Shown piece after piece: positions 9,747 to 32,330 of a DNA stretch of 36,459 bases. Within the stretch, counting starts at the first letter, position 1, and each line of letters opens with the position of its first letter. This stretch comes from a virus. The translations under genes were made by a program, and so were the position numbers. The notes beneath the pieces were generated by a model. That model made no database searches and was not told the DNA's origin. It saw only the letters and a list, made by a program, of their open reading frames with translations. The stretch spans positions 1 through 36,459 of the IMG/VR virus record IMGVR_UViG_3300013093_000124; one strand, 5' to 3'.

Positions 9747-10133
9747 ATGGCAACACTATACAAAGGTTTCAGTACCATTAATCGCAGCAAGAAATTCCGT
9801 ACTACGGATATTGATTTGGTCAAACAAGACTTGTTGAATCATTTTAGTATCCGTAAAGGCGAAAAATTGATGCAGCCCAACTTTGGCAGTATCATATGGA
9901 GCCTGTTGTTTGAGCCCTTGGACGAAACCATTAATCAAACCATTGTTGACGATGTTACACGTATTGTGGGCTATGATCCCCGCATTGGCTTGCAAAACAT
10001 CACCATCACTGGCTTAGATCACGGTATTCAAATTGAGCTTGATCTGATATACATACCCACCAACATGTCAACTGCCATGTCACTGACATTTGATTCAAAC
10101 AGTGAAACACTGACCACCAGCAGTCTTTATTAA
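9747..10133 (+). CDS. 25: gp25-type baseplate wedge subunit
   Basis: This 128-residue protein is close in length to T4 gp25 (132). It is a sheath-initiator and wedge protein of the gp25/lysozyme-like family. The pattern is typical: an N-terminal DIDLVKQDLLNHFSIRKGEKLMQPNFGS (residues about 22-49), then WSLLFEPLDE carrying the LFEP form of the family's conserved E-P-R-type motif. After it come a helix (TIVDDVTRIVGYDPRI) and paired strands (LQNITITGLDHGIQIELDLIYI). The product would bind gp6 at the core of the wedge and template sheath assembly. The gene lies 8 nt after gp5, without an obvious ribosome binding site. Confidence 0.9.
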   Translation: MATLYKGFSTINRSKKFRTTDIDLVKQDLLNHFSIRKGEKLMQPNFGSIIWSLLFEPLDETINQTIVDDVTRIVGYDPRIGLQNITITGLDHGIQIELDLIYIPTNMSTAMSLTFDSNSETLTTSSLY

Positions 10134-10156
10134 TAAACTACGTAGATTTTGATTAT

Positions 10157-10164
10157 TATAAATA
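10157..10164 (+). promoter_or_regulatory. Perfect T4-type late promoter before gp6
   Basis: TATAAATA is an exact match to the T4 late consensus, in a 52-nt gap between gp25 and gp6. It ends 21 nt before the ATG at 10186. ACGGAT follows at 10172-10177, as at the 1743 box. Transcription would start near 10170, leaving a leader of about 16 nt. Confidence 0.75.
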
Positions 10165-10185
10165 CATAATAACGGATGTATTTAG

Positions 10186-13100
10186 ATGTCAACCACAACA
10201 CGTCAGACTAACTTATTGGTAAACCAGGACTGGACTGCTGTTTATCAAACATTTAAGCAGGCAGATTTCCAGAGCTACGACTTTGAGACTCTACGCAAGA
10301 CCATGATTGACTACTTGCGTAACTACTATCCGGAAGATTTTAACGACTTTACAGAGTCTAGTGAATACGTTGCCTTGATTGATCTTATTGCTTTCTTGGG
10401 ACAGAGCCTGGCTTTCCGTGGTGACATGAATGCACGTGAAAATTTCTTTGACACCGCAGAACGTCGCGACAGTATTCTCAAACTGGCACGCTTGATCAGC
10501 TATAACCCCAAACGCAATATTCCTGCCAGTGGGTATTTGAAAATTGACAGTGTCAGCACCACAGAAAATCTATTTGACAGCAACGGACTGAATCTCAGTA
10601 ACGTACAAATCAACTGGAACGATACTGCTAATCCTGACTGGCAAGAACAGTTTACTACTATATTGAATGCCACATTGGTCACTAATCAAGCCATTGGCAA
10701 TCCTGGTAACAGCAACACCATTGGCGGCATCATGACAAACGAGTACAGCATCAACTTGCCACCTGATGTACTGCCTCGATATGCTTTTACTGCACTGATT
10801 GAAGACGGTACCATGCCCATGGAAATAGTCAGTGCTTCCAGCAGTGGACAGAGCTACATCTACGAGCCTGCTCCAGTGCCCACTGGCAAGTTCAACATCT
10901 TGTACCGTAACGACAACTTGGGCAATGGCAGCAACAACACTGGTTATTTTGTGTATTTCAAGCAAGGCACATTGGCCACGGAAGACTTCAATCTAGATCA
11001 AAGCCTGCCAAATCGTGTAGTGAATGTAAACTTTGACAATATCAACAACAATGATGTTTGGCTGTATCAGTTGGATGTCAACGGAAATCCAACTACACCA
11101 TGGGCACAAGTGCCAGCAGTAGCTGGGGTCAACGTGATTTACAATCAAAGCAGCAATCGTAATTTGTTCCAAGTCAACAGCCGCACCAATGATCAAATTG
11201 ATATAGTGTTTGGTGATGGTGCTTTTGCCAATATACCACAAGGCATCTATAGATTGTTCTATAGAACCAGTAACGGATTGCAATACAAGATCACTCCCAA
11301 CGAGCTACAGACTATTTCTATTCCATTGAGTTATGTCAGTAAAAATAATCGAGTTGAAACCGTGACCATTACTGCTAGCCTGTACTACACTGTGACCAAT
11401 GCAACCACACGTGAAAGTATTGACAGTATACGTACCAATGCACCCTCAGGCTACTACACACAAAACCGTATGATCACAGGGGAAGACTATAATCTATTCC
11501 CTTATGTCAACTTCAATACAATATTAAAAGCCAAAGCTGTGAACCGTAGCAGCAGTGGTATTAGTCGCTATTTGGATGTACTTGATGTAACTGGAAAATA
11601 CAGCAGCACCAATATATTCTGTAACGATGGCTGGATTTATCAACAGCCTTCAAGCAACAGCACCATCTTTAGTTTTAATACTACCACAGACATTTACAAC
11701 GTGGTGTATAACACAGTTGTGCCGCTGCTGAGTTCAATTGATGTACGCCAGTTCTACTACGCCAAGTACCCACGTTACACCTATTCCAATGTCAAATGGT
11801 TACAGTCAACTGCCACAAGCAATAGCAGTACTGGCTACTTTGCCAATTCCTCGAACACAGTTTACCAAATTGGTCAAGGTGTAAGCAGCAATTTGAAATA
11901 CATCACAACTGGAGCCATGGTACGCTTCAACGCTGGCGTTGGAAACTACTTTGATGCACAAAATCAAATTCAATCAGGTACCGCCACATACTCAAGTCAA
12001 AAGTCTTATATTTGGGCCAGTGTTGTCAGTTACAACGTCAATTTCCCAATAAAGTTGAGTCAGAATATTCCATCAGGTGCAGTGCTGGACTCTATTATTC
12101 CTGTGTTCAAAACTGATTTACCGGGAACAGTTTTTGTCACAGAGATTGTTAACTTGATCAAGAGTTATAAAAACTTTGGCTTAAGTTACAACAACGCCAC
12201 ACAGGCATGGCAAATCATACTGCCTCAAGATCTAAATTTGGGAGCATTTAGTCTTACCAACCAAGGAGATGTCACTGGTACAGCTCAAGACTCATCTTGG
12301 ACAGTGGCATTTGCCTACAACGGTATCACCTACAACATTGCACATCGCGGACTTCAATATGTATTTGAAAGCCTGGGACAAACACGTTTCTACTTTGACA
12401 ACACAGTAAAAGTATTTGACAGTAAAACAGCACTGACTGTACATGATCAAATCAACATTTTAAAAACCAATAGTCAGCCCGACAGTGCAACGCCGTTGGC
12501 ACAGGATCAAACTTGGTATGTGTACGACAGCGTGGTCAATGCTGACGGATACATCGACAATACCAAAATATTGATCACATTCCCAGATTCCAACAACAAC
12601 GGAATTCCCGATGATCCAGATTTGTTTACCACTACTGTGGAGCCAACAGTGAATCCAAATCAAAAGTATGTGTTCTTCCAATCTGTAACAGATGCCAACA
12701 ACTTTATCAATGTTGTTCCAGTGGACAATACCACTGTTGTGACCACATACGCCACACAGTCTGCCATCAACACCAATATCAATTTGTATGTCAGTGGACA
12801 GGTGTTTTACGCCACAACTGAAGGCAATTTTTATCAATTGGCAATCAGCACCAGTGGTACAAGAACACTAAATCTTCTTTCCAATTACACCGCTGAAGTT
12901 GGAAGACAAAATTTAACGTTTCAATATCGTCATAACAGTCCTAACGATCGTCGTATTGACCCAAGCCCAAACAACATCATGGACATGTATATTTTGACCA
13001 AAGCCTACAGTCAAGACTACTTGGCTTGGATTCAAGACACCACCAATACGGTAGTAGAACCCAGTTTGCCCACAACCGATGCACTAAAAACAGAATACGG

Positions 13101-13563
13101 ATCAGGTACCACTAGTTTGGACAATTTCAAAGCACTGAGCGACACAATTATCTATAACCCAGGCAAATACAAACCCTTGTTTGGAGCCAAGGCAGATGCA
13201 AGTCTACAGGCAACATTCAAAGTGGTCAAAAACCCCAACGTCAACGTCAGCGACAATGACATCATCAGCGGTGTAGTTGCAGCCATCAATACCTATTTTG
13301 ACAGCGCAAACTGGGACTTTGGGGACACATTTTATTTCAGTGAACTCAGTACCTATCTGCACAACACGTTGGCTCCCAATGTGTCCAGCATCATCATTGT
13401 ACCAACCAGCACCAATGTTGCATTTGGTAGTTTGATGCAGATCAATAGCAACCCCAACGAAATCATGGTGAGTGCTGCCACAGCAAACAATGTACAAATC
13501 ATCAGTGCAATCACCGCAGCGCAAATTAATCAAACCTTAGCAGGATTGGGAATCGTAATTTAA
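10186..13563 (+). CDS. 6: gp6-type baseplate wedge subunit, enlarged
   Basis: This 1125-residue protein forms the ring that joins the wedges of the baseplate. The N-terminal 120 residues carry the gp6 signature: DFETLRKTMIDYLRNYYPEDF, then SSEYVALIDLIAFLGQSLAFRGDMNARENFFDTAERRDSILKLARLISYNPKR. This is the core that contacts gp25. A baseplate J-like region follows (DQIDIVFGDGAFANIPQGIYRLFYRTSNG, about residues 340-370). A later conserved part near the C-terminus (FGDTFYFSELSTYLHNTLAPNVSSIIIVP) precedes the end. T4 gp6 is 660 residues, so several hundred residues are added in the middle. They include a DSNNNGIPDDPD calcium-loop-like motif at residues 801-812. The gene has its own late promoter and a weak GGA-type ribosome site, and ends 1 nt before the giant gene. 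Confidence 0.88.
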   Translation: MSTTTRQTNLLVNQDWTAVYQTFKQADFQSYDFETLRKTMIDYLRNYYPEDFNDFTESSEYVALIDLIAFLGQSLAFRGDMNARENFFDTAERRDSILKLARLISYNPKRNIPASGYLKIDSVSTTENLFDSNGLNLSNVQINWNDTANPDWQEQFTTILNATLVTNQAIGNPGNSNTIGGIMTNEYSINLPPDVLPRYAFTALIEDGTMPMEIVSASSSGQSYIYEPAPVPTGKFNILYRNDNLGNGSNNTGYFVYFKQGTLATEDFNLDQSLPNRVVNVNFDNINNNDVWLYQLDVNGNPTTPWAQVPAVAGVNVIYNQSSNRNLFQVNSRTNDQIDIVFGDGAFANIPQGIYRLFYRTSNGLQYKITPNELQTISIPLSYVSKNNRVETVTITASLYYTVTNATTRESIDSIRTNAPSGYYTQNRMITGEDYNLFPYVNFNTILKAKAVNRSSSGISRYLDVLDVTGKYSSTNIFCNDGWIYQQPSSNSTIFSFNTTTDIYNVVYNTVVPLLSSIDVRQFYYAKYPRYTYSNVKWLQSTATSNSSTGYFANSSNTVYQIGQGVSSNLKYITTGAMVRFNAGVGNYFDAQNQIQSGTATYSSQKSYIWASVVSYNVNFPIKLSQNIPSGAVLDSIIPVFKTDLPGTVFVTEIVNLIKSYKNFGLSYNNATQAWQIILPQDLNLGAFSLTNQGDVTGTAQDSSWTVAFAYNGITYNIAHRGLQYVFESLGQTRFYFDNTVKVFDSKTALTVHDQINILKTNSQPDSATPLAQDQTWYVYDSVVNADGYIDNTKILITFPDSNNNGIPDDPDLFTTTVEPTVNPNQKYVFFQSVTDANNFINVVPVDNTTVVTTYATQSAINTNINLYVSGQVFYATTEGNFYQLAISTSGTRTLNLLSNYTAEVGRQNLTFQYRHNSPNDRRIDPSPNNIMDMYILTKAYSQDYLAWIQDTTNTVVEPSLPTTDALKTEYGSGTTSLDNFKALSDTIIYNPGKYKPLFGAKADASLQATFKVVKNPNVNVSDNDIISGVVAAINTYFDSANWDFGDTFYFSELSTYLHNTLAPNVSSIIIVPTSTNVAFGSLMQINSNPNEIMVSAATANNVQIISAITAAQINQTLAGLGIVI

Positions 13564-13564
13564 T

Positions 13565-16500
13565 ATGGCACAAATACAAACAAGTAATTTTTTACCAGAC
13601 GCATTTAGAACTGATGCAAACAAAAAGTTCCTAAATGCCACGCTGGATCAATTGGTAACACAGCCTGATTTACGAAACATAAACGGTTATGTTGGTCGCA
13701 AGTTTGCGCCAACATTCAAAAGCACAGACAACTATGTGCCTGAACCAACCGTGCAACGTCAGAATTATCAACTTGAGCCCAGTGTTGTGGTCAAGAACAA
13801 AATCACAGGCAACACTGAATTTTTCAGTAGTTACATTGACTACTTGAATCAAATTGGACACTACGGTGGCTTAACCAATAATCATAGTCGACTATTTGGC
13901 AACGAGAGTTACAGTTTCAATGGTTTGTTTGATTTTGACAAGTTCATTAACTTTACCCAGTACTACTGGTTAGAAAACGGCCCTGATGCTGTGGCCGTGT
14001 TTGGTAGCGAAATTCCAACTCAAGAGACTTTTATTGTTACCCGTAATCCAAGTACAGGAACATACCAATTCACTGGCAGCGACGGAGTCAGTAACCCAAC
14101 ACTTAGACTTGCCTATGGTGGAACTTATCAATTTGTTGTTAATCAGCCAGGCTACCCATTCTGGATTCAAACCGACCCAGGACTAAGCGGCAAAAAAGTC
14201 AATCAAAGCAACCTAAACAGTCGAGATGTGTTGGGAGTGACCAACAACGGGCTTGATGTAGGCACTGTGGTCTTTCAAGTTCCTCAGCCCACTGCTCAAG
14301 ATTTTTATACTCGCATGCCACTTGCAGGCAGTGTTGATCTAAGCACCACACTACACTACAATCAAATACAGGGACAAAGACTCAGCTCGATCAAGGCATT
14401 GGCAGAAAACGGCATTGATGGTGTATTTTCTCAAAGTCAATTGAATTTAAAGTCATTGATTTTTGTCAATAACGACGTTGATCCTAGTCTATGGACAGCG
14501 AACAATTATACTGTGCCCGTGGCACAACGATTAAATGCCTGGATCATTAGTTTGAGCTCAGACAGTGATCCCATAGTGACACTGAGTACCTCTAATCAAG
14601 CATTCAGTGTAACTGCGTTGAATCGCGTTTTTGTCAAATCAGGTACTACTCGTGCTGAATACACCTACTACACCAATGCTGATTATCTAAACTACAACGT
14701 GTACTACTTGATGCCCGACATCACCAGCGTTTTGAACACCTTGTACTATCAAGACGGTGTAGGTACGACTTTTGTTGGCGAGATCAATCTGTTACAGGTC
14801 AATGATACCACAATCAACATTGACACTGACATTGTTGGAAAGACAACATATCAAAGCCCCAATGGAGTTTTGTTCAGTAACGGACTAAAAGTAACATTTA
14901 CTGGCACAGTGAATCCATCAACTTATTATAACAACAGTTACTATGTTGAAGGAGTTGGCACTGCAATAAAATTGTTACCAGTGAGTGATTTTTTAACTCC
15001 AGAATCTTACGCCAGCAGCGGCTTGGTCAATCCAGATTATTTTACAATTAACCGTGCAAGCATCGACTTGAATGCGTGGACTCGCAGCAACCGTTGGTTC
15101 CATATTGATATAATCAATTCTACGGCGGCCTACAACGGAACTACAGCCATAATTGATCAAGCGGTGCGTGCCAATAGACCCATTATTGAATTTGAAGCTG
15201 ACTTGCAGTTATTTCAGTCGGGTCGTGTGGCAAAAACTCCAGTGGATCTACTGAATACCACTGCCAATTTTGACAGCAAAAATACCATTGAACTTGCTCC
15301 TCAAGGCACAAGCCTTGACGGCACTGTCATCACTGACGGTATGCGAATTATTTTTGCCAATGATCTTGATCCAACAGTACGCGGTCAAATTTTTGTGGCC
15401 AATATTGTGTATATCCCAAGTCTCAGCGGGCATTACATCAACTTGACTCTGGCAGCAGACTCTGTTGTGGAATTGAATCACAATGTGGTGGTACTGCAAG
15501 GTCCCAACAAAGGCACTGAATTCCACTACACCTACAGCAACGGCGGTTTGGTTTGGGTAGCCAATGGACAGCAAAAAACCAAAGTTAATCAAGCTCCCTT
15601 GTTTGACGTGGTTGACAGCAACGGTGTCAGCATCTCTACCTACTTGAACAGTACTTTTGCAGGTACACAAATATTTGGGTACAAGGTGGGAACTGGTGCA
15701 GTGGATCCTGTCTTGGGCATTGCACTCAGTTACAGAAACTTTAATCAAATTGGTGACATTCAGTTTGTAAACAATTTTGACAGTGACACTTTTGGCTACA
15801 CCACGGCAGCGGGCACTGCGGAAACCAATCAAGCTGTGAATACTGTGGGTACTCTACAGCAAAATATTGATTTAACCAGCTTTGATATTCGCAATACTTG
15901 GACCACCAACGTTGAAAAATCAAAACAGTTTCAAATCATTGCCGGGGTCTATGACGGCAATAACCCGTACTTCAAGATTGACATAGCAGCCAATTCTGCA
16001 GGTACTGTGCCCAACTTTCGAGTATATCGTAATAGTAAACAAATTACCGGGTACGAACTGGTTACAATTGGCGTATTGCAATATGTGCATGTCACTGACA
16101 GTGCGTTGACCACTGGCGATCAAATTGATATATTGATCTACAGCGATGCAGTCAGCGCCCTGGGCTATTACGAAGTACCTAAAAATCTAGACTTCAACAG
16201 CGAAAACGCAAACTTTGTAAATCTTACATTGGGCCAGTTACGCAACCACTTGACCACCATGGTTGGCAATAGCAGTAAAGTTTTTGGTGCGGTGCCTGGA
16301 AATAGTAACCTACGTGACGTGCCAGTAAAACAACAGGGCGGCAGTATTCTACAACATTCAAGTCCTGTGGTTTACGGCGAGATGTTCCTGGTGGACCCAA
16401 ACGCAAACTTCATGAGTGGTGTAGAGTTGGCACGTTACGAGTACAGCAAGGTCAAAAACAAAATACTTGAACTCAGCACAAGAACCAACGGGTTGGACTA

Positions 16501-19500
16501 CACCAACGTTCCTGCATTGTTGGACACCTTACTGCAAAATATCAACAGTGTCAAAAACAAAACATTTGCTTGGTATTATAGTGACATGGTGCCGTACGGT
16601 ACTCTTAAAAACACATTGACCTATACTGTGGTCAACGCAGAAATTGTTGACTACGAGATCAGTAATGTGTTTAGCGACACCACACTTGGCAATACTGCGG
16701 TATTGGTTTATAAAAACAATGTGCAATTGGTCAAAGGTGTTGACTACAAATTTGACACCAATCGTGCTGGTGTGACTGTTTTGACATCACTGGCAGTTGG
16801 TGATGTACTCACCATTAACGAGTACAGCAGTACTGATGGAAACTATATCCCTGAGACTCCAACCAAGTTGGGACTGTATCCTAAATTTACACCAAACATA
16901 TATCTTGATACCACGTACCAAACTCCAATCATGGTGATTCAAGGTCACGATGGCAGTATTACTCCAGCGTTTGGTGACTACCGCGACCAATTGTTGTTGG
17001 AGTTTGAACTACGCATCTACAACAACATCAAAGTTGATTACAGCAAAAACGTATTTGATATCTATAATTATTTGCCTGGCAAATTTAGAACCACTGACTA
17101 TACCAACAACGAATTCACACAGTTGTTGACCAACAGCTTTTTGCGTTGGTCTGGCAGCAATCGTGTGGACTATATTACCAATAGTTATTTTGTTGCCAAC
17201 GCACCGTTTACTTGGAATTACAATAGATTTGTTGACACCATCAACGGCGAAGCATTGGCAGGATATTGGAGAGGCATTTACAAATACTTCTACGACACAG
17301 ATCGCCCGCATACTAATCCTTGGGAAATGTTGGGGTTCAGTGAACAACCCTCGTGGTGGGAAACACGTTATGGTCCAGCGCCCTATACAGGCGGTAACTT
17401 GGTGTTGTGGGGCGACCTTGCAGCCGGTTACATCTGGAACGGCGGTAATGGCAATGACTACACCGACACACGTTTTGCTCGCCCCAACTTGTTGAGCATA
17501 ATACCAGTAGACAGCAGCGGCAATTTACGTAGTCCTGAGCAATTTGCAGTCAAGAGTTTTAACAGCAACAACGCCAGTGGCAATTACAAAATTGGCGATC
17601 AAGGTCCTGTAGAGTCGGCTTGGCGCCGCAGCAGTGATTTTCCGTTTGCCATGCAACAGGCTCTGGCATTGAGCCATCCTGCATTCTACTTTGGTAGCTT
17701 GATTGATATTGGTCGTTACTACAAAAATACCGGACTTGATCAGTATGTATTAGCGGATACACTACAACGTGTCACTCCTGGTGCAATACGCATCAACGGT
17801 ACCACGTCAGGTACAACAGTATATCGTTCAGCTGGATATTTGAACTGGATCGCTGAATACCTACGTAACCAAGGTATTGATCCTGGAACCAAGCTGTACG
17901 AATACTTGGACAATGTCAATATACAGTTGGCCTACAAAATGGCCGGGTACACTGATCAAAGTTTTATACAGGTAATCGCAGAACAAAGTAGCCCAACTAG
18001 TACCAACAGTGGTGTTGTGATTCCCAACGAAAGCTATGCCATTGAACTGTATAAATCAACCCCAACCAATAGACTGGTGTATAGTGGTGTTGTAATTGAA
18101 CGCACCGCCAGTGGATATTCAGTAAGTGGATTTGATTTTGAAACACCGTACTTTACCATTATCCCAAGTTTGGCCAACAACAATTCATACAGCATTTCGG
18201 TGCTGAACGAATCAGCAGTGATCTACAGCGACTTCCAAACTTATAAAGTCACTGTGCCCTATGGATACGAATTCACTAGCAAACAACAAGTGGTTGATTT
18301 CTTGGTCAGCTACCAACGTTACTTACAGGGCAGCGGATTCCAATTTACAGATGTTGACCCTGATCTTGGTATACAACGTGACTGGATACTAAGTGCCAAA
18401 GAATTCTTGACTTGGTCTCAACAAGGTTGGAAAACAAGTAGTGTATTGGTATTGAGTCCAACATTGGATAGAATCACACTCACCACTGCTATTGGTGTAG
18501 TGGACAAGATTCAAAATACACCTATTTCTAGTAAAATCTTAGACACCAACTACAACTACATCAAGTACAGTCAGTTGACAGTGAATCGACAGGCCTTGGC
18601 AGCTGGCAATACATTCAATGTTCAAGCCAACAGTGGGCAAACCATTGCATTGGCAGTACTGGATGTGGTTGAGTATGAACACATAATGATATTCAACAAC
18701 ACTGATGTGTTCAACGACATCATTTATGTACCTGAACTGGGCAACAGACAGTATCGTTTAAAGCTGATTGGTAAGAAAACTGGCTCTTGGAGTGGTGCAC
18801 TGAATCCTTCAGGATTTATCTATAACAGCACCACTATCGACACATGGCAACCCGATACTGACTATGCGTTTGGTTCTTTGGTGCAGTACAAGAACAATTA
18901 CTATACCGCAACTCAAAACATTGCTGGCGCCACCACATTCAACACCACATTGTGGAGCCAAGTCAAAAAATCAACATTGAAGACTGGCCTATTGCCAAAC
19001 TTCAGCTACAATGCTGAGAAGTTTAATCGTTTCAACGACATTGACAATCCTGAATCATTGGGCAACTTTGATGCTTACAGTGACAGTGCCATTGGATTCC
19101 GTTCACGCAGTTACTTGACCAACTTTGGCATTGACAATGTCACACAAGCCAAGTTTTATCAAGGCTACATACGAGAAAAAGGCACACTGAATGCAATCAC
19201 AGCGTTCACCGCAGCGGGCTTTAATAGCATCAGCAGCAACATCAGTCTTTACGAAGAATGGGGTATGCGTGTAGGCGAGTACGGTGCTTTGGACAACAAT
19301 CGCAGCATTGAGCTGATACTGACTGAGTCAACATTCAACGGAGATCCAGTAACTATCACACTATTGCCCAATGGTGGTTCAACCAGCAGCAACGGCATCA
19401 TCGGAGTACAAACATCTCAATTGTACAAACATGATTCTAAATACACTCCCAACATCTACATCAACCGAGATGCCAGCAGCATTTACGAAAATGATTTGCC

Positions 19501-22500
19501 CACTGCGGGTTATGTAAACATCAATGATGTTGACGCCACTATATATGACATTGCCAACTATTCACAGTTGAGTGCAAACATTGCAGATATTGGCATTGGT
19601 TACAAAATTTGGTGTGCCAAAGACATAAACAGCACTTGGAATGTTTATCGAGTAACAGAAACTGATATATCAGTCACCAAGATTGTGTACAGCGTGGACA
19701 ACATAGGCGTGGTCACAACCAATGGTCCACATCAATTTGCCTACGGCGACTTGATTGCCATCAAGAACTTTGATGTTAGAGTCAATGGAGTCTACCAAGT
19801 TTATAGTGTAATTGACCCCTATAACTTCAATGTTGTATTCTCTGGACAAGCAGGCGAACAAATCAAGCAGGCCATTACCATAACTGGTACTGGTACATTG
19901 TTTACTTTTGAAAGTCAACGCATTGCTAACAGCACAGACATCAACAGTCTGACACCGGCCCATGGCTGGATTGACAATGACAAACTCTGGGTTGACAACA
20001 ATAACAATGGCAACACCTGGGCAGTTTACAACAAATCCACTCCTTGGACAGGAAATGTCAGCTTCTTGAATCCAAGTATGCGTATCAATGGCAACAGCTA
20101 CATTTCCAACAGCGGATTTGGCACAGTAGTTGCTATCAACAGCAGTGGTACTTTTGCAGCAGCTGGCTTGCCCAAATTGAACTTGGGCAACGTGGCAGTA
20201 TTTGTTGCCAATGTGACCAATGGAAATGTACTTACTCAAGTGGGCAATATTGGAGCACATACTGGCAACAGCGTAAGTAACTTTGGTGCAAGCCTTGCCA
20301 CAGCAGGCAACTTGCTCTACATTGGTGACCCTGGCAATGGCACCAGCGACTATGGTCGAGTACACATTCATCAATTCAATGGTAACGCCAGTTTCCCATG
20401 GACACAGACTTTGTCAAGCCCATGGGGCAGCAACACCGGCGATGCTTACGGAACAAGTGTTGCAGCCAGCGCAGACGGCACTTGGCTATATGTCTCTGCA
20501 CCCAATGCAGGAAATGTTTATGTGTATCATGCCAACGCCACCAGCTACTACAGCTATGCCAACACTGTCACAGTGGGCAGCAGTACTTATGCACAATTTG
20601 GTTACACAGTTGGCACCACCAGCGACGGCCGTCAAATTGCAATCGGTGCACCATATGACACAGTCAATGGCATCAGTGCAGCAGGCGCAGTATATGTATA
20701 TGATCGCAGTGTAGAGAGTTTTGTTGCCACTGGCAGCACCAGTTATACAACATCATACCCTGCGTATGCAGCCAATGTCAAAATCACAGTCAACGGCAAT
20801 GTGCTGTCCGGCGGCTACACAGTCAATGGCACAACAACAGTGACATTTGCCAATGCTCCGGTAATTGGATCATTGATCACTATTGATACAAACAAAATTC
20901 AGTTACTGGAAAGACTGGTATCGCCCGCTCCATCAAGTGGTGCTGCATTTGGTGCTGTGACCAGCATTGCTGGCAATGATGCAGACATTTATGTTTCAAG
21001 CCCTGGGTACAGCACAGTTGGATATCACAGCGGCATTGTTTACCGTTTTGTGAATCAAGGAGCTGCATATGGTACCATTACTGGTACTAAATTTGCACCC
21101 AATGTCACAGTTGGTGACAGTATCAGAATCAACGGATTCAATGTTACCTTTACAGGAAACACCGCTGCAAATGTGGCAACAAATATCAACAGTGCCAATA
21201 TTCCTGGGGTAACTGCACTAGCACAAGACTTTGGTGCATTGACCATTACCAGCAATATTACTACACCTTATCAAAAGCTGGTGATTGGTGCTGGTCCTGG
21301 TACTGCTGTCAGTGATTTGGGTCTACAGGTCTACAACAACTCACAGTCATTGTTGCATCCTGCAACAGACATAGTTGATCAATTTGGATCTCAAATACTG
21401 TCCAGCCCTGACAGCAAATCTTTGGTCATCAGTGCTGATCAAGGCAGTACTTACAACCTAGTGACATTTGATAATGCAATGACCACATTTGATCAAGATG
21501 GTACAACTTTCTTTGACGTGGTATTGGGATCAGGTGTTGTTTACATTTATGGCTTAGTTGGTGGACACTTCACAGCCAATACACCAGATCAATACACTTT
21601 GGTGCAACGTTTACAGAACAACAGCTTGAATTCAAATGACCAATTTGGTTACACCATGGCCATGAACGCCAAAACCCTGTTGGTTGGTGCGCCTGGAGCC
21701 AGTGGAAACTTGTCCGTTGATCCTGTTAGCGGGGCTTATGTACCAACTCCCAACAGCGGAACATTTTACACCTATAACAATTTTGGTGGAAATATTGGCT
21801 GGGATGTGATCAGTTATCAGTTGCCGCAAGTTGATATTGACAGCATCAGTAGAATGTATCTGTACAACAGCAACACAGCTTCGTTGGTGTCTAGCTTGGA
21901 CTACATTGATCCAGCCAAAGGCAAAGTACTGGGTGTAGCACAAGCTGACTTGGATTTCATTACTGCATACGACCCGGCGGTTTATAATGCAGTGTCTGGA
22001 ATTGACTCAACTCCCAATTTGGCCAATAGTCAAGATTTCCACTGGGGTCCAGCACAAGTCACAAAGACTTGGTGGAACACTGATGCAGTACGTTATTTAG
22101 ATTACGAACAAGGCAATGTAACTTATCGTGCCAACAACTGGGGACGAGTATTCCCAGGCAGTACTATCCAAGTCTGCGAATGGGTTGAAAGCGCAATGCC
22201 GCCAAGTGCCTATACCGGCACTGGTACGCCTTTGTATCCTGACAACACTGCTTACAGCATATCAGTTAGCATAAATCCCAACACCGGTATGGCCACCAGC
22301 ACCTACTACTATTGGGTGGTCGGTAAAACCAGCTTGGAGCAGCAGTCTGTACACACCAACACAGTCAGCACCATTGCTGACATGATTGCTAACCCACAGG
22401 CACAAGGCATACCGTATGCAGCAGTACTACGCAGCGACAGCGTGAGCCTATACGGTATTTCTAACTTGCTGAGTGGCAATTCTGTGGTGTTACACTCTGA

Positions 22501-25500
22501 TTACGATGTATTGAAAAATACCAACATCATTCACAGCGAATACCAATTGGTGCAAGAAGGCAACAGCAACAGTCCAATACCCGCTAGAATCATCAACAAG
22601 ATAGTTGACAGTCTAAGTGGAGTTGACTCGTTGGGCAATACAGTACCAGATGCAACACTGGCACCACAAACACGTATTGGCCTAGGTGAACGCCCAAATC
22701 AAACGCTATTTGTGGACCGTGCTGCGGCGTTGGAAAGTTTTGTTGAGTATGTCAATGACATATTAATTCAATATCCCATTGTTGAAGAATTCAATATCAA
22801 CAATCTGTACAGTGCTGAATCAGTACCTGATACTACACAATACGATGTTGAAGTTGCTACTTACGCTGAACTAAGCTATATCGACACCACCATCATCAAC
22901 ACTGGGTATACTGCATTGGTACTGTCTGACGAAACTAGAAATTATTTCTGGTCATTGTACTCATGGAGTGGCACAGGTTGGAGTTTTGTCAAATCTCAGA
23001 GCTACAATACAACGCAATATTGGAGCAAAGTCAATTGGTACGACAGTACATATGATCCAACAGTACTGCCAACATATACTGTTGCCACTGTGGATAAATT
23101 GAGTTTGTTGAGCCCAGCGGTTGGCGACACAATCAAGGTGTTGAACAACGGCAATGGTCAATTTGTAGTTTATCGTGTCAATAGTGACGGCACCAGTAGT
23201 TTAGTGGGCATTGAAAACGGAACTATCCAGTTCAGCAGTATCTTGTATACTGGAAATGTATCTGGGCAGGAAATTCGAGTCATATTTGAAACAATCCAAA
23301 ACGATATCTTTGTTGACACACTCAAAGTAAACTTCAATGATTTGTTCTTCTTCTTGATCAATTACATCTTGTCAGAGCAGCCAAGTGTTGATTGGGTATT
23401 CAAAACCAGTTTTGTCAGCATCCTGCACAAGTTGCGTAAACTGGAACAGTTCCCCAACTACATTCAAGATAACCAAACTTATTACGAGCAGTACATCAAT
23501 GAAGTCAAGCCATATAGAACAAGTTTACGCGAGTACTTGATTGCTTATCAAGGCAACGATGAGTACTATGGTGACATGACCGACTTTGATATTCCCAGCA
23601 CATACATCACATCAGTTGGTGGATATCGCAGCCCCAACGGCAGCAATGTAACCGATGCAGCAAGTCTAAGCACTTTGCCACAGTACAGCCAATGGTATAA
23701 AAATCACAGCTACAGTATCTCATCTGTTGTAGTATCAAATCCTGGTCAAGCAAGCAATGTGCAGATCACCACATTGAATTTGGGATTTGCACCCAACATT
23801 GGTTCCAGTATTGCACACGTTGAGGTTGGAGATACTATCACTCAACCAAACTCTGGTGCCAGTGGTGTTGTCTATACTAGAAACGTGATTGATGACAATA
23901 TTGTATTGATCAATGTTTCTGGTACATTTGTTGGTAACGTGACTGGAAACGATACTGTTGCCGGAGTTGGCAACACATATCTATTCCGTAACGGTGCTAA
24001 TCTTACTGCCAATGTGGCCACTGTAAGCACAAACTATGCAGTAACTGGCTACTATACTGTGCCAACTGTTACTGTGGTAGGTGGTGGTGGCAGTGGTGCA
24101 AACATCATTGCACAGCTTGATGGCCAAGGTGGAATTGCAAGTTTCGAGGTCATCAGTCCGGGACAGGGATATACCAGCACCCCAACATTGTTTATCAATG
24201 GTACTGGTACTGGCGCAGCTGGATATCCTTTGTTGTCAAACAAATACTATATTGAGAATTTGCCCACTACCACATTGACTGCAAACAGCAATGTCATGGC
24301 GTATGTTGGTAACTTGATTACTCAACCCAATACTGGTGCATATGGCACAGTATACAGTGCCAGCTCGGGAAACATTATCACATTGACAGGTGTTGTTGGT
24401 ACATTTGCCAGCAACCAATACATCTACAGTGATGCTGCCAACTTGAATACTTACGTGACTTTGACCAACAGCTATACCCAGTTTATTAATCAAAGTTATA
24501 ACACAGTTCGCACGTTTGCAACCACAATCAACTTTGATCGCGTCAACTACTCTAGTAATGTTATTGCTTGGCAACCCAATATTGCAATACAGGCCAATAG
24601 CTGGGTCAGCTACAACGGTGCAGCTTACCAAGCACAAGGCAACGTGTACAGCACAGCAGTTTTGAGCCTGTCGGGCAACATAGCATCCAATGTGGGTGAT
24701 TATATTACACAATCCAACTCTAGTGGCAACGCAAGAGTGTTATTGTCAAATGTTACTGCAATTACACTGGGCAATATCAGTGGTGCTTTTTTACGACGTG
24801 GCGGAAATCTGTTGATCAACAATATTGATTCTGGTGTGCATCCAATGGCAGTAAACAACATTTTTGATTACACAAAGTATACTCAGCTCAATGCCAATGC
24901 GTTTGCTTCGGCTGCTGATCGTATTACAGCATATTACCAGCCAACGGTCAGCATGCCAGGCAAAGATTTGTCTCAATTGATGTCGGGTATTTCTTACCCC
25001 GGAGTAGTTGTTGCTGGACCAAAATTTGCTGCAAACACCTTGTCACTGACTTCGGGCAATGTGTTTGCGTTTGCCAACAACGGTTATGTGTATAGCGGAA
25101 ATACCTCAGTGGTAAACTTTGCCAATTTGAAGATTGTTGCAGGCCAACCATTGACCATTGTGGACAACACACAGAACAAGACCTATTATGTCAATATTAT
25201 TGAAGCCGCAGCCGGCAACTTGTTTGTCTCTAACTTGACAAGTAATATTGCCAGTGGTGCCAATGTGACGTTAAAATACTATGACTACAACAATCCTTTG
25301 TTCTTGGACAGTATCATAACCAACACCTACACCAATACTGCTTTTGGTACCAGCCCGGCTGATATCACTGTGGATGGTGGAGCGTATTTTGATACTTACA
25401 GCAGCCATGGTCCTGAAGAATTGATTCCGGGCACAATGTACGACAACTTGAACATGGAAGTGTTTACACGCAGTATATTTGCAGCCAACGGCAATGTAGA

Positions 25501-25978
25501 TCCCAATGGTACCACAGTGGGTATTCGTGTAACTGCCAACATGTCACAGAGCTTTTCTTATCACAGAATCTCAAGCGCCAACACCACAGTACTGAGTGCC
25601 AATTTGAATCTCACAGACAGTAACATACATGTCACCAACGCCAGTGTGTTGCCTGTTCCTGACTTGACTTATCTACACCCTGGCATAATTTACATCAACG
25701 GGGAAAAGATCACTTACTGGACCATTGACACAGTCAACAACGTGCTGGGACAAATTCGAAGAGCAGTTGACGGTACAGGTGCAGCAAATGTACATGTGTC
25801 AGGCTCAAGAGTGGTTGACAGCAGTTTCCAACAGTCTATTTTGTCAAATATTGCTGCAAATACCTGGATTTCACCATGGAGCGTGGGCAATGTCACTGCT
25901 GCAAACGTCAGCGCAACTTTTGGCAATTCCACAATAGTGAACAGTTTCTTAATTGCTTCACCAAGCTACACGCCTTGA
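13565..25978 (+). CDS. Giant virion structural protein with beta-propeller (gp7 position)
   Basis: This 4137-residue protein is encoded by a single uninterrupted 12.4-kb frame. It follows gp6, where T4 has gp7, so a wedge or peripheral baseplate role is inferred. The first roughly 1500 residues contain segments I recall from very large structural proteins of aquatic T4-like phages (NPWEMLGFSEQPSWWETRYGP near 1250; FTINRASIDLNAWTRSNRWFHIDI near 500). Residues 2182-2740 hold seven FG-GAP-like blades, for example DAYGTSVAASADGTWLYVSAPN and QFGYTVGTTSDGRQIAIGAP. Two short W-x5-Y-type modules like family 5/12 carbohydrate-binding modules lie near 1759-1802 and 3668-3700. Three copies of a VGD-x-ITQPNSGA module lie near 3420, 3580 and 3709. 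A Gly-rich VVGGGGSGANIIAQL...GYTSTPTLFI module lies near 3505-3552. No signal peptide or transmembrane segment is visible. The start is the ATG 1 nt after the gp6 stop. Tail-fibre identity is an alternative. Confidence 0.75.
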   Translation: MAQIQTSNFLPDAFRTDANKKFLNATLDQLVTQPDLRNINGYVGRKFAPTFKSTDNYVPEPTVQRQNYQLEPSVVVKNKITGNTEFFSSYIDYLNQIGHYGGLTNNHSRLFGNESYSFNGLFDFDKFINFTQYYWLENGPDAVAVFGSEIPTQETFIVTRNPSTGTYQFTGSDGVSNPTLRLAYGGTYQFVVNQPGYPFWIQTDPGLSGKKVNQSNLNSRDVLGVTNNGLDVGTVVFQVPQPTAQDFYTRMPLAGSVDLSTTLHYNQIQGQRLSSIKALAENGIDGVFSQSQLNLKSLIFVNNDVDPSLWTANNYTVPVAQRLNAWIISLSSDSDPIVTLSTSNQAFSVTALNRVFVKSGTTRAEYTYYTNADYLNYNVYYLMPDITSVLNTLYYQDGVGTTFVGEINLLQVNDTTINIDTDIVGKTTYQSPNGVLFSNGLKVTFTGTVNPSTYYNNSYYVEGVGTAIKLLPVSDFLTPESYASSGLVNPDYFTINRASIDLNAWTRSNRWFHIDIINSTAAYNGTTAIIDQAVRANRPIIEFEADLQLFQSGRVAKTPVDLLNTTANFDSKNTIELAPQGTSLDGTVITDGMRIIFANDLDPTVRGQIFVANIVYIPSLSGHYINLTLAADSVVELNHNVVVLQGPNKGTEFHYTYSNGGLVWVANGQQKTKVNQAPLFDVVDSNGVSISTYLNSTFAGTQIFGYKVGTGAVDPVLGIALSYRNFNQIGDIQFVNNFDSDTFGYTTAAGTAETNQAVNTVGTLQQNIDLTSFDIRNTWTTNVEKSKQFQIIAGVYDGNNPYFKIDIAANSAGTVPNFRVYRNSKQITGYELVTIGVLQYVHVTDSALTTGDQIDILIYSDAVSALGYYEVPKNLDFNSENANFVNLTLGQLRNHLTTMVGNSSKVFGAVPGNSNLRDVPVKQQGGSILQHSSPVVYGEMFLVDPNANFMSGVELARYEYSKVKNKILELSTRTNGLDYTNVPALLDTLLQNINSVKNKTFAWYYSDMVPYGTLKNTLTYTVVNAEIVDYEISNVFSDTTLGNTAVLVYKNNVQLVKGVDYKFDTNRAGVTVLTSLAVGDVLTINEYSSTDGNYIPETPTKLGLYPKFTPNIYLDTTYQTPIMVIQGHDGSITPAFGDYRDQLLLEFELRIYNNIKVDYSKNVFDIYNYLPGKFRTTDYTNNEFTQLLTNSFLRWSGSNRVDYITNSYFVANAPFTWNYNRFVDTINGEALAGYWRGIYKYFYDTDRPHTNPWEMLGFSEQPSWWETRYGPAPYTGGNLVLWGDLAAGYIWNGGNGNDYTDTRFARPNLLSIIPVDSSGNLRSPEQFAVKSFNSNNASGNYKIGDQGPVESAWRRSSDFPFAMQQALALSHPAFYFGSLIDIGRYYKNTGLDQYVLADTLQRVTPGAIRINGTTSGTTVYRSAGYLNWIAEYLRNQGIDPGTKLYEYLDNVNIQLAYKMAGYTDQSFIQVIAEQSSPTSTNSGVVIPNESYAIELYKSTPTNRLVYSGVVIERTASGYSVSGFDFETPYFTIIPSLANNNSYSISVLNESAVIYSDFQTYKVTVPYGYEFTSKQQVVDFLVSYQRYLQGSGFQFTDVDPDLGIQRDWILSAKEFLTWSQQGWKTSSVLVLSPTLDRITLTTAIGVVDKIQNTPISSKILDTNYNYIKYSQLTVNRQALAAGNTFNVQANSGQTIALAVLDVVEYEHIMIFNNTDVFNDIIYVPELGNRQYRLKLIGKKTGSWSGALNPSGFIYNSTTIDTWQPDTDYAFGSLVQYKNNYYTATQNIAGATTFNTTLWSQVKKSTLKTGLLPNFSYNAEKFNRFNDIDNPESLGNFDAYSDSAIGFRSRSYLTNFGIDNVTQAKFYQGYIREKGTLNAITAFTAAGFNSISSNISLYEEWGMRVGEYGALDNNRSIELILTESTFNGDPVTITLLPNGGSTSSNGIIGVQTSQLYKHDSKYTPNIYINRDASSIYENDLPTAGYVNINDVDATIYDIANYSQLSANIADIGIGYKIWCAKDINSTWNVYRVTETDISVTKIVYSVDNIGVVTTNGPHQFAYGDLIAIKNFDVRVNGVYQVYSVIDPYNFNVVFSGQAGEQIKQAITITGTGTLFTFESQRIANSTDINSLTPAHGWIDNDKLWVDNNNNGNTWAVYNKSTPWTGNVSFLNPSMRINGNSYISNSGFGTVVAINSSGTFAAAGLPKLNLGNVAVFVANVTNGNVLTQVGNIGAHTGNSVSNFGASLATAGNLLYIGDPGNGTSDYGRVHIHQFNGNASFPWTQTLSSPWGSNTGDAYGTSVAASADGTWLYVSAPNAGNVYVYHANATSYYSYANTVTVGSSTYAQFGYTVGTTSDGRQIAIGAPYDTVNGISAAGAVYVYDRSVESFVATGSTSYTTSYPAYAANVKITVNGNVLSGGYTVNGTTTVTFANAPVIGSLITIDTNKIQLLERLVSPAPSSGAAFGAVTSIAGNDADIYVSSPGYSTVGYHSGIVYRFVNQGAAYGTITGTKFAPNVTVGDSIRINGFNVTFTGNTAANVATNINSANIPGVTALAQDFGALTITSNITTPYQKLVIGAGPGTAVSDLGLQVYNNSQSLLHPATDIVDQFGSQILSSPDSKSLVISADQGSTYNLVTFDNAMTTFDQDGTTFFDVVLGSGVVYIYGLVGGHFTANTPDQYTLVQRLQNNSLNSNDQFGYTMAMNAKTLLVGAPGASGNLSVDPVSGAYVPTPNSGTFYTYNNFGGNIGWDVISYQLPQVDIDSISRMYLYNSNTASLVSSLDYIDPAKGKVLGVAQADLDFITAYDPAVYNAVSGIDSTPNLANSQDFHWGPAQVTKTWWNTDAVRYLDYEQGNVTYRANNWGRVFPGSTIQVCEWVESAMPPSAYTGTGTPLYPDNTAYSISVSINPNTGMATSTYYYWVVGKTSLEQQSVHTNTVSTIADMIANPQAQGIPYAAVLRSDSVSLYGISNLLSGNSVVLHSDYDVLKNTNIIHSEYQLVQEGNSNSPIPARIINKIVDSLSGVDSLGNTVPDATLAPQTRIGLGERPNQTLFVDRAAALESFVEYVNDILIQYPIVEEFNINNLYSAESVPDTTQYDVEVATYAELSYIDTTIINTGYTALVLSDETRNYFWSLYSWSGTGWSFVKSQSYNTTQYWSKVNWYDSTYDPTVLPTYTVATVDKLSLLSPAVGDTIKVLNNGNGQFVVYRVNSDGTSSLVGIENGTIQFSSILYTGNVSGQEIRVIFETIQNDIFVDTLKVNFNDLFFFLINYILSEQPSVDWVFKTSFVSILHKLRKLEQFPNYIQDNQTYYEQYINEVKPYRTSLREYLIAYQGNDEYYGDMTDFDIPSTYITSVGGYRSPNGSNVTDAASLSTLPQYSQWYKNHSYSISSVVVSNPGQASNVQITTLNLGFAPNIGSSIAHVEVGDTITQPNSGASGVVYTRNVIDDNIVLINVSGTFVGNVTGNDTVAGVGNTYLFRNGANLTANVATVSTNYAVTGYYTVPTVTVVGGGGSGANIIAQLDGQGGIASFEVISPGQGYTSTPTLFINGTGTGAAGYPLLSNKYYIENLPTTTLTANSNVMAYVGNLITQPNTGAYGTVYSASSGNIITLTGVVGTFASNQYIYSDAANLNTYVTLTNSYTQFINQSYNTVRTFATTINFDRVNYSSNVIAWQPNIAIQANSWVSYNGAAYQAQGNVYSTAVLSLSGNIASNVGDYITQSNSSGNARVLLSNVTAITLGNISGAFLRRGGNLLINNIDSGVHPMAVNNIFDYTKYTQLNANAFASAADRITAYYQPTVSMPGKDLSQLMSGISYPGVVVAGPKFAANTLSLTSGNVFAFANNGYVYSGNTSVVNFANLKIVAGQPLTIVDNTQNKTYYVNIIEAAAGNLFVSNLTSNIASGANVTLKYYDYNNPLFLDSIITNTYTNTAFGTSPADITVDGGAYFDTYSSHGPEELIPGTMYDNLNMEVFTRSIFAANGNVDPNGTTVGIRVTANMSQSFSYHRISSANTTVLSANLNLTDSNIHVTNASVLPVPDLTYLHPGIIYINGEKITYWTIDTVNNVLGQIRRAVDGTGAANVHVSGSRVVDSSFQQSILSNIAANTWISPWSVGNVTAANVSATFGNSTIVNSFLIASPSYTP

Positions 25979-27914: not shown

Positions 27915-30900
27915 ATGACAACTAAAACTTACATTGTCGCTCTTAATAAAAACGTTGATTACAAACAATTTTGGCAAGAGATGGAAACTGCATCGTATGG
28001 GGTTCCGTACGTCCCGGATCGTCCAGTGTCAATTGTTGATGCAAGAGATGTTTTTGAACGCATCTGTGAATATGCCTTGACCGATGAAGAGGCAACAGCT
28101 TTACGTAAAGATCCGCGTGTGGCCGGGGTCGAAGTTCCAATTGAAGAACACCCAACTTTTTCATGGACCACCTCGTCTATTACAAACCAAGTTGGTAATT
28201 TTACCAAACCTGCTGCACCAGTTGCTTATGCCGGTGGCGAGTATAGTTGGGGCGACAACATAAACTGGGGTCTAATTAGACACAGCAACATTGAAAATCT
28301 CTACGGCGCTGGATCAACAGTACCTGATGGCACAACTTACAGTTATGATCTCGACGGCACTGGCGTAGACGTTGTCATTATTGACACTGGGGTACAAGCA
28401 GATCACCCAGAATTTCAATATGTTGGCAATTCTACATCACGTGTACAGCAAATTGATTGGTACGCCGAGACTGGCATAGCAGCGTTTCAGGGAATTGATC
28501 ACTACATTGACACCGAAGGACACGGCACAACTGTGGCTGGGGTAGTAGCAGGCAAAACATACGGCTGGGCCAAAGGCTCCAACATCTATGCTATCAAGGC
28601 CACAGGCCCCGCCCCCACTACCACTATTACTGATGCATTTGCTGGGTTGTTGACTTGGCACAACAACAAGTTCTCGTCAACCGGACGTCCTACCTCGTTA
28701 AACTTGAGTATGGCATTTACCATGCAGGCTGCACCAACACTGACTGTTGCCACCGGCGAGACAAAATTCACAGCCTGCGCTGCTACCAGCTCGCCAAAAG
28801 AAGGGGCACTACATTTTTTGGCAAATGTCACAGGTGTAAACTATAGAGGCACTGTGACTGGAAATGTTGCACCTGGTGCAACTCCGGCAACTTCTGGCAA
28901 TGTGTCATTTGATGTATTGGCATCTGCAGGCTTACAAGTTTCTGATGTTAGAAACGCCGACTACACTGCACCTGCTTGGAATGGTATCCCAATTGAGTAC
29001 ACTCCGTATGATGTCATGTTGGCAGAGTTGATTGATTCTGGTATTATAGTGTCAAGAGCAGCCGGTAACCACAGCTACAAAATAGACCTACCTGGCGGTG
29101 CTGATTACGACAACTATGTGTCAGCGCCAACTAACCCAGATTATCCCCAAGTCTCTCAATATCTATACTATCATAGGGGAGCAAGTCCAAAAGATCCAAG
29201 AATGCTGACAGTTGGTGCTCTTGAAAATATTCCGTACTCTGCAACTGTCGAACAACGTGCTGTGTTTTCTGCTGCAGGCCCTGGGGTTGATGTTTATGCT
29301 GCTGGTGTTGGTATCATGACCTCGGCAAGCAGCAATGCAACTACAAGGTTGGATCGTAACGGCAATCCCACAACAGCACCCTATTTCTTAGATGGTGGGT
29401 ATTTGCAGGTACTGGGCGAAGGAACATCTTATGCTGCCCCGCAAATTGCAGGTATGGCTGCATTGTATCTGCAAGCAAACCCGGTGGCAAGTGCTTCGGA
29501 TATCAAAGCATGGTTGGTGAGCAATGCTGCAAAATCCAGCAGCATGTACTCCACTGGGTTTGACACTGACTACTCCAATGATCGATCATTGATGGGCGGT
29601 GCTGGCTTGGTTGCATTCTTTACTGATCCCGATGGCTACTCGTTCCGCGTGGACGATGCAGTAACAATCAAATACGGACTGGGAGTAACACGTATTTTGA
29701 ATTCAAGCAACAGTTGGCAAGCTCTCAAAGGCATGTGGACCAAAACTGATTCTGCCACTTGGACTCCTGTAAAAACTGCTTGGATCAAAACAGATCCTGC
29801 AACATGGACTCGAGTGTACCCTACACCAATGGGTGTGCTAACGCCAACTCCCAATTCGTTGGCATTTCAGCCTTTCCAATTTCATAGAGATCCACAGAGC
29901 GATCCTACAATCAGTCCACCAAAACAATTGGTGATTACCAACACTGGTGATTACGATCTAGTAATCAACTCAATTACACTGTCAAATACCTCCAGTTACG
30001 CATCTTATATAACCAATGCCAATACACCCATAACACTGGTACCGCAAGGGCAGGAGCAATATGGTAACAGTTCAGTCCAAGTTGGAGTAAGAGTAGCAGG
30101 CCTGGCTGTTGGGTCTTATTCAGCCGATGTTGTTTGTGTAAGCAACGTGGGAGTATTTGGCACCAGCACCACACTGATTCCAGTTTCCATCACAGTACAA
30201 CCCGACTTCAATGGCATCACCGCAAATGTCAGTGCAGTACCAAACACAGACAAAACTGTAAGTCTTGATTACTATGTGTTAGAATCGCCGGCCCAAAGCA
30301 ATATAACCATTACCAACTCGGGCAACGGTGCCAACCTCACCATCTCAAATATAGTCTCTGCCAATGGATACTTCTCAGTATCCAATGTGCCGGCTACTCC
30401 AATCACCTATAACTTTTCAACTTATACTGGTAACTCGGCTCAGTTCACAATCACAGCAGCAAACTTGAATGCTGGAACATACTCGGACACACTGATTGTA
30501 AACAGCAATGCCTCAAACAATCCAGCATTGTCAATTCCAGTCACTATCAAAGTCACACAACCCAACGGTAGAAGTGAAGATTTTAATCAAGCCGGCGTCA
30601 CAACATTTACTGTGCCAGATCATGTGCACCGAATCAAAGTGTTTGCTGTGGGCGGTGGCGGCTCGGGCGGACCCAGTACCAATCAAGCCATCATTGGTGG
30701 TTCAGGCGGCGGTGGCGGCTCGGGTGCATACCAGTGGCAAACTGTGTCGGTTACCCCGGGCGAGGTACTATCAATCACAGTGGGCGGCGGCAACTACCCT
30801 GATAGACCCACTGCACTACGATACTACTCCTTTAGTGGTCGAAATAATTGGAGTGCCTTTATGAACAGTTATGCTGTGTGGGTCAATCCCGACGGCATTA

Positions 30901-31370: not shown

Positions 31371-32330
31371 ATGGAACATGATATTCAAAAAATTGATGGC
31401 GTAATTCCTCAAGAATTATTTGATTCAATATCTCAAAAATCAAAACTTCACGGATTCAATTATGGTTGGTACAGTTCGCGAAGCGAGCCTTATGGTCATT
31501 GGAATTTCCAATATGCTAGAACCATAACAAAAAACGGTTTAGATGTTTCTCGACAATTATATCCTGATTTGCTGCTGGCTTGGCAACATGTGCAACAGCT
31601 CTATTTTCCTGACATGATATTGGCCAGATGCTACATCAGTCAACACACCTACGGCACAGATGGATATCCGCACACAGACAGTACCAGAGACAACAGCAAA
31701 ACTTTGGTGGTTTATCTGAATCAAGAATGGCGACCCGAGTGGGCTGGGGAAACTGTGATATTTCAAGATGGAGAAATAGTTTGCGCCAGTTTGCCAAAAG
31801 CCAACCGCGGTCTAATATTTCCTGGTAACCGGCTCCACGTTGCAAGATCTCCCTCAAGAGTCTGTCCAGTAGCAAGAACCACTCTCATGTTCAAGGCAGT
31901 AATACCGGACCCGCTACGTGATCGTATACAGAGATTTTTAGCAGAGCACAAAGTTGATCAAATACCACATTCGGGACGCACTCTGGCAGATCATTTATTA
32001 CAAACTTACGATCTATTAAAAAATGCAGGACAAAGTGATGCAGTTTGCAGCGCAGGAGCGCTACACAGTATCTTTGGCACAAACATATTCAAAATCGTTA
32101 CTATCCCGCTATCAGATAAACACCTGGTGGTTGATCTAGTTGGCCAAGCGGCAGCTGACTTGATAGAAGAATTCAGTCAAATTGATCGTCCTGCGCTGCT
32201 AGAATCATCAGTGATCCGTGAGCAAAATTTAGAACTTTGCACCATTGAGGCTGCAAATCTAGTGGAGCAAAACAACTTGAGTGCTTACCCAAATTTGGAA
32301 AAGTACTGGCAACAGTTAAATAAAACATAA
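31371..32330 (+). CDS. 2-oxoglutarate/Fe(II) oxygenase fused to an HD-like (DUF6817-type) domain
   Basis: This is a 319-residue two-domain enzyme. The N-terminal half (about residues 1-185) is a prolyl-4-hydroxylase-like oxygenase. Its iron ligands are His101 and Asp103 (GYPHTDS) and His156 (NRLHVARSP). Arg169 (ARTTLMFKA) is placed to hold 2-oxoglutarate, and GETVIF lies between. The C-terminal half (about 195-300) reads HSGRTLADHLLQTYDLL, then CSAGALHSIFGTNIFK (His200, His207, His232-Ser). This matches the DUF6817 pattern as I know it, a divergent HD-type fold with Ser in place of the second metal-binding Asp. It starts 3 nt after the stop of the protease-fibre gene and is followed 13 nt later by the glycine-rich gene, so the three are co-translated. 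Hydroxylation of the fibre is an attractive inference, but the substrate is unknown. Confidence 0.8.
   Translation: MEHDIQKIDGVIPQELFDSISQKSKLHGFNYGWYSSRSEPYGHWNFQYARTITKNGLDVSRQLYPDLLLAWQHVQQLYFPDMILARCYISQHTYGTDGYPHTDSTRDNSKTLVVYLNQEWRPEWAGETVIFQDGEIVCASLPKANRGLIFPGNRLHVARSPSRVCPVARTTLMFKAVIPDPLRDRIQRFLAEHKVDQIPHSGRTLADHLLQTYDLLKNAGQSDAVCSAGALHSIFGTNIFKIVTIPLSDKHLVVDLVGQAAADLIEEFSQIDRPALLESSVIREQNLELCTIEAANLVEQNNLSAYPNLEKYWQQLNKT

Follow-up and report, generated by a model that had tools for sequence, protein, structure and literature searches.

A seven-blade FG-GAP_2 propeller as an exchangeable insert in a giant protein of a jumbo-phage baseplate gene cluster

Our computations place a seven-blade propeller of the FG-GAP_2 type in the tip of a small β-hairpin of a giant protein that is encoded in a baseplate gene cluster, and find the propeller missing from the same hairpin in relatives nested among propeller carriers. 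The virus record concerned (IMG/VR IMGVR_UViG_3300013093_000124) was analyzed over its whole length of 36,459 bases, which is referred to as the window. FG-GAP propellers are known from integrins, from bacterial surface proteins, and from free-standing “hemagglutinins” of jumbo phages; here, such a propeller occurs as an insert that can be exchanged within a large protein encoded in the baseplate cluster. A search of an open-access literature library found no report that places FG-GAP domains in phage tails. As filled, bare, enlarged, and empty alleles occur naturally, phages with different alleles at the slot can be compared to test directly what a baseplate propeller does.

Results

The Carrier Protein and Its Gene Neighborhood

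The carrier, a giant virion protein of 4,137 aa, is encoded on the plus strand at 13565..25978, and its ORF matches PHROG 10938 (“virion structural protein”) with 1071.7 bits in a profile search. Directly upstream and on the same strand lie baseplate wedge genes (9747..13563), i.e., gp25 (9747-10133) and a wedge gene of the gp6 type (10186-13563), preceded by a hub/spike protein with an OB-domain and a VanY-type peptidase domain (6478-9738) and by a gene with a weak match to gp53 (2653-2952). T4 has the same order, 53-5-25-6-[7], and the carrier takes the place of gene 7. As hhalign comparisons of the whole carrier and of all its segments with T4 gp7 gave probabilities below 1%, the label “gp7” denotes position only. 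A baseplate wedge gene also directly precedes the carrier homolog in PA5oct, Atu_ph07, RaK2, and Phosso, and seven uncultured relatives have a gp6-like gene in their records. The homolog of Pseudomonas phage PA5oct comprises 3,857 aa and its annotation cites ESI-MS/MS. The parts of the carrier that flank the propeller matched 57-62 phage records, mostly jumbo phages among the matches listed. The carrier is encoded among the baseplate genes of a contractile tail in a lineage of jumbo phages, and we infer its exact place on the virion from gene order.

Profile searches of the PDB in which the conserved regions at the N and C ends of the carrier served as queries gave no meaningful match, and a PDB fold search with the model of a homolog that has an empty slot (L045) gave no strong match except for a CBM5/12-like module. 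In the window protein, a CBM5/12-like module, below the Pfam cut-off by sequence, lies at residues 1760-1785 (18842-18919), and the corresponding part of the model for L045 resembles CBM-like domains of tail proteins from Agrobacterium phages Milano and 7-7-1 (Z 7.5, rmsd 1.1 Å over 45 residues).

Other ORFs of the window code for a 1,150-aa protein of the tail gene cluster with subtilase (S8), choice-of-anchor D, and glycine-rich domains (27915-31367), for a DUF6817 fused to a 2OG-Fe(II) oxygenase domain (31371-32330), and for a fiber-like protein with a weak match to the Peptidase_G2 autoproteolytic domain (32673-34085), in which a 30-base tandem repeat is present in 2.8 copies at 33265-33347.

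Seven Blades Are Recognized at the Sequence Level

A first-pass annotation made from the sequence had proposed seven FG-GAP-type units between bases 20108 and 21785, and this proposal is borne out. The two bases correspond to residues 2182 and 2740/2741 of the giant protein, and the proposed unit starts are correct within 2-3 residues when judged by the FG/YG dipeptides, which are found at residues 2185, 2240, 2295, 2345, 2462, 2607, and 2694. All blades are encoded on the plus strand. Blades 1 (20102..20218, residues 2180-2218), 2 (20267..20380, 2235-2272), 3 (20432..20539, 2290-2325), 4 (20582..20722, 2340-2386), and 5 (20933..21052, 2457-2496) were delimited by the structural model and by a leave-one-blade-out test; blades 6 (21368..21556, 2602-2664), with a conserved TTFD...TxFxD...SG lobe, and 7 (21629..21781, 2689-2739), the best match to FG-GAP_2, were delimited by the leave-one-out test. 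For this test, an HMM profile built from six blades was run against the seventh, with 500 shuffled sequences and 500 stretches taken from other parts of the protein as decoys. All seven blades scored above all 1000 decoys, six of them clearly and blade 1, the weakest by sequence, marginally (9.9 bits versus 9.1 bits for the best decoy). A strict motif occurs in five units of the protein, whereas 497 of 500 shuffled versions contained none and three contained one.

The Pfam profile FG-GAP_2 (PF14312, cut-off 23) matches the whole protein (E = 9e-9, 35.8 bits) and the propeller fragment (E = 3e-12, 46.8 bits) as well as every member of the propeller alignment (17/17, the window and 16 relatives), whereas the classic FG-GAP profile (PF01839) has no match in the window and is found in only 3 of 73 related inserts. 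The calcium-binding DxDxDG loops of classic FG-GAP repeats are likewise missing from the window propeller, whose only D-x-D-like stretch is DQDGT at residue 2643. The absence of both features argues for an FG-GAP_2 propeller with an integrin-like fold and not for an integrin. When the propeller was used as a query, no match was obtained at E 1e-3 among 50,697 records of cultured phages, and a sequence search of the PDB returned only a weak match, integrin alpha-6 (E 0.006).

Superposition Indicates a Closed Seven-Blade Ring in the Predicted Model

An AlphaFold2 model of the propeller, predicted from 17 natural sequences, has a mean pLDDT of 78.5 and a pTM of 0.83, and integrin alpha chains are its top PDB matches in Foldseek. 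With VIA-align, the model superposes on integrin alphaM over 347 residues (Z 34.1, rmsd 2.8 Å) and on the seven-blade WD40 protein Ciao1 over 322 of 328 residues (Z 31.5). Ring closure was judged by superposition of the predicted model and, since nearly all of the closed seven-blade Ciao1 is covered, the model appears to close with seven blades, as the first-pass annotation had expected of an integrin-type propeller. A closed seven-blade propeller with an integrin-alpha-type fold is therefore strongly supported for the predicted structure. In a fold search of a library of predicted viral proteins, the best match was a protein of another uncultured phage, followed at lower ranks by FG-GAP proteins of giant viruses and by the Atu_ph07 “hemagglutinin.”

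Two Small Domains Are Inserted Between Blades

Two inserted domains, announced in the first-pass annotation and placed there correctly within a few residues, interrupt the window propeller, i.e., a β domain between blades 4 and 5 (plus strand, 20723..20893, residues about 2387-2443) and an α/β domain between blades 5 and 6 (plus strand, 21053..21337, about 2497-2591). Relatives carry bare propellers of about 395 aa at the same site, with neither of the inserted domains. In a profile-profile comparison, the bare family aligns over its full length to the window protein (E 2.6e-58), and the alignment skips about 2387-2443 and 2497-2591 of the latter. Presence of inserts was scored by local matches together with profile alignment; hmmalign was rejected because, as a global method, it imposed coverage on some of the bare propellers. 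Within the slot, variability is highest in the first inserted domain (48% mean identity), and the second resembles the flagellin hook IN motif, with weak Pfam matches in some relatives. Extra modules matching YHYH, CBM_X2, or Flagellin_IN occur in the inserts of some relatives. In L014 (10001-12154), a dockerin-type-I-like stretch (DVNNSGTVSPLDALAYN; Pfam E 0.033 only) follows propeller blade 2.

A Hairpin Slot With Filled and Empty Alleles

The propeller sits at the tip of a small β-hairpin of the carrier, WAVY...GWDVI, as an insert. Its N-side strand WAVY (plus strand, 20018..20029, residues 2152-2155), after which the insert starts, is defined by the alignment with empty sites and by model strand E2-7; the slot with the propeller follows (plus strand, 20036..21799, 2158-2745), and the insert ends, again by alignment with empty sites, at the C-side strand WDVISYQ (plus strand, 21800..21820, 2746-2752), which is followed by the conserved motif VDIxSIxRxYxYNxxT...DPxKGK. 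A search with the conserved stretch that directly follows the propeller recovered 80 loci. Slot lengths were determined for 90 proteins with both flanking anchors, including the window and some near-duplicates. The slot holds 382-1,365 aa in 85 of the 90 proteins and 97 aa in one, and is empty (4-6 aa) in four. The filled slots fall into lengths of 382-403 (n = 14), 435-513 (n = 8), 581-617 (n = 26, the window type), 630-697 (n = 22), 734-873 (n = 7), 967-971 (n = 3), and 1275-1365 aa (n = 5). All 73 distinct filled inserts are matched by FG-GAP_2. The slots of 1,275-1,365 aa, which are found in the giant proteins of L072, L086, L087, L088, and L107, are long enough for two propellers or for one with very large inserts.

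In the four empty-site proteins (L045, L048, L055, and L089), the chain runs straight through the hairpin. One of them reads WAVYTYNGSTWTRTRQQSPSVDI where the filled version reads WAVYNKSTPW, the insert, and GWDVISYQLPQVDI; L045 reads ...WVNADTQSGATGWAVYTYNGSTWTRTRQQSPSVDITSI... where the filled version reads ...WVDNNNNGNTWAVYNKSTPW, the insert, and GWDVISYQLPQVDIDSI.... An independent model of L045, of modest local confidence, shows the empty slot (493-497) flanked by two strands, 488-493 and 498-504. By eye, PA5oct and SCTP-2 show similar short joins at the slot.

A tree built from the region downstream of the propeller nests the empty sites inside the clade with bare propellers, where L045 pairs with L048, L055 is placed next to L054, and L089 stands apart; the cultured outgroups lack the propeller. 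This tree is a quick, midpoint-rooted one with moderate support (82-97) at some of the relevant forks, and the nesting suggests that the propeller may have been lost two or three times or may have been replaced by an empty allele.

Free-Standing Propellers in Related Jumbo Phages

Atu_ph07 encodes a separate propeller of 393 aa that matches the bare family in a profile comparison (probability 96.7, E 4e-10). Its relative Phosso has 64 matches to FG-GAP_2, most of them in two ORFs of 3,702 and 3,182 aa, so that strings of many propellers apparently exist in one phage. In the record of Sinorhizobium phage Phosso (PV764938.1), the FG-GAP_2 regions extend over about 48,000-69,000 and 92,000-94,500, partly within L123 and L124, and further matches lie in ORFs of 429 and 398 aa. 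Phage AP-J-162 is reported to possess the hemagglutinins gp213 and gp214, of which gp213 was modeled as similar to the human integrin 3VI3, and a separate structural protein of 4,455 aa that adjoins its wedge genes (PMC11242549). This kind of domain is thus known as a free protein from related jumbo phages, and its insertion into the carrier is the feature described here.

Discussion

In the arrangement that we propose, a closed seven-blade FG-GAP_2 propeller with its two small inserted domains has been built into the hairpin tip of a giant protein of the baseplate cluster. As its N and C termini lie together, the propeller could enter or leave the hairpin with the carrier undisturbed, and the natural empty-site proteins indicate that such an insertion or removal has happened. 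Most likely, it would stand out from the baseplate, serve as an accessory platform for binding, and contact a glycan or a protein of the host surface, with the propeller face and the inserted domains as the probable contact surface. As a whole, we hold this explanation to be rather probable.

The bare, decorated, enlarged, and missing versions at exactly the same spot suggest an optional binding module on the virion; for a dispensable domain at the tip of a hairpin, an accessory platform for binding is the simplest reading. The clean presence or absence among relatives is compatible with such an optional module, be it accessory or for binding, and names no ligand. It was also suggested in the first-pass annotation that a propeller on a virion would be a good candidate for binding a receptor or polysaccharide. 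The virion assignment agrees with gene order, PHROG 10938, and the ESI-MS/MS note for PA5oct; for the binding part, which is plausible, neither a convincing match to a catalytic or lectin family nor hypervariability came forward. Identity across the propeller blades is 55-68% by segment, compared to 43-75% for the rest of the giant protein, i.e., the propeller is about as conserved as its surroundings and lends no such support to a role in host range. The C-terminal segment (3700-4137) is more variable (43-50% identity) and would be the first place to look for a host-range determinant. Among the records of relatives, N-terminal domains of T7 tail fibers gave sub-threshold matches only. PA5oct, RaK2, and the four empty-site phages do without the propeller, which shows that adsorption does not generally depend on it.

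Instead of contacting the host, the propeller might serve as a docking or bracing platform within the virion, holding a tail fiber, a spike, or a neighboring wedge. Its location in a structural protein of the baseplate cluster, a moderate degree of conservation much like that of the remaining protein, and the weak resemblance of the second inserted domain to the Flagellin_IN motif of another structural assembly are in line with such a role, but an obligatory contact is hard to reconcile with absence in nested relatives and with very different sizes at the same site, unless the partner was lost as well. We therefore judge docking to be rather unlikely and rank contact with a receptor or glycan above it. 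An enzyme acting on host polysaccharide, similar to lactonases, sialidases, or depolymerases, seems unlikely to a much higher degree. Many propellers are enzymes, and 9 of the 73 inserts have weak matches to Pfam Lactonase (best E 3e-5), besides single weak matches to Kelch, NANM, and arylesterase; however, these seem to reflect a similarity shared by propellers in general, integrin heads and WD40 scaffolds rank highest among the structural matches, and no catalytic motif was identified in the propeller.

It might also be argued that no propeller exists and that the repeats reflect chance or a low-complexity pattern in a β-rich structural protein. The whole protein is indeed generally β-rich and rich in Gly, Ser, Thr, and Asn, and blade 1 is weak by sequence. 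Against this stand the profile statistics and the leave-one-out test, a confidently predicted structure that matches closed propellers by superposition, and the independent conservation of the bare version. Model and statistics already refute chance repeats, to which we assign a negligible probability.

Returning to the accessory binding platform, one may go a step further and think of the hairpin tip as a dedicated plug-in site at which this jumbo-phage lineage swaps, decorates, enlarges, or deletes propellers and thereby changes the surface that the baseplate recognizes, a parallel among prokaryotic viruses to integrin heads with inserted ligand-binding domains. We offer this as a tentative idea that is more doubtful than the platform itself. 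In integrins, the I domain is a whole domain inserted in a propeller loop. The integrin alpha head (alphaM, PDB 7usl) shares with the phage propeller the seven FG-GAP-type blades and the insertion of whole domains in propeller loops. However, identity between the two is 17-21%, the phage propeller belongs to FG-GAP_2 and not to classic FG-GAP, it stands in no integrin context, and its inserts lie between blades 4/5 and 5/6. The “hemagglutinins” of Atu_ph07 (393 aa) and AP-J-162 (gp213/gp214) are FG-GAP_2 propellers from related T4-like jumbo phages, but they are separate small proteins and not parts of a giant baseplate-cluster protein.

Seven-blade propellers on jumbo-phage baseplates are also represented by gp131C of phiKZ (PDB 4GBF), which is located at the baseplate periphery and whose function is unconfirmed (PMC4901313). 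In contrast to the propeller described here, it is the C-terminal domain of a smaller protein and not a hairpin insert, and between phiKZ gp131 and the window propeller no sequence or profile similarity was detected. The receptor-binding protein of S. aureus phage phi11 likewise contains a propeller in a baseplate protein and serves in receptor binding (PMC4901313), but it is trimeric, has five blades instead of seven, and recognizes GlcNAc of teichoic acid. The closest counterparts of the carrier itself are its PHROG 10938 homologs RaK2 gp465, PA5oct gp355, Atu_ph07 gp180, and SCTP-2 gp140, with about 24-31% identity in the N and C parts and, in annotated relatives, the same placement after a gp6-like gene, but none of the four has an FG-GAP propeller at the slot. 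The slot is near-empty in PA5oct and RaK2, and in Atu_ph07 gp180 it is occupied by an unrelated β-repeat sequence. In Salicola phage SCTP-2 (L020), a LamG-like stretch (concanavalin fold, residues about 2120-2350) was noticed by eye just before the equivalent hairpin.
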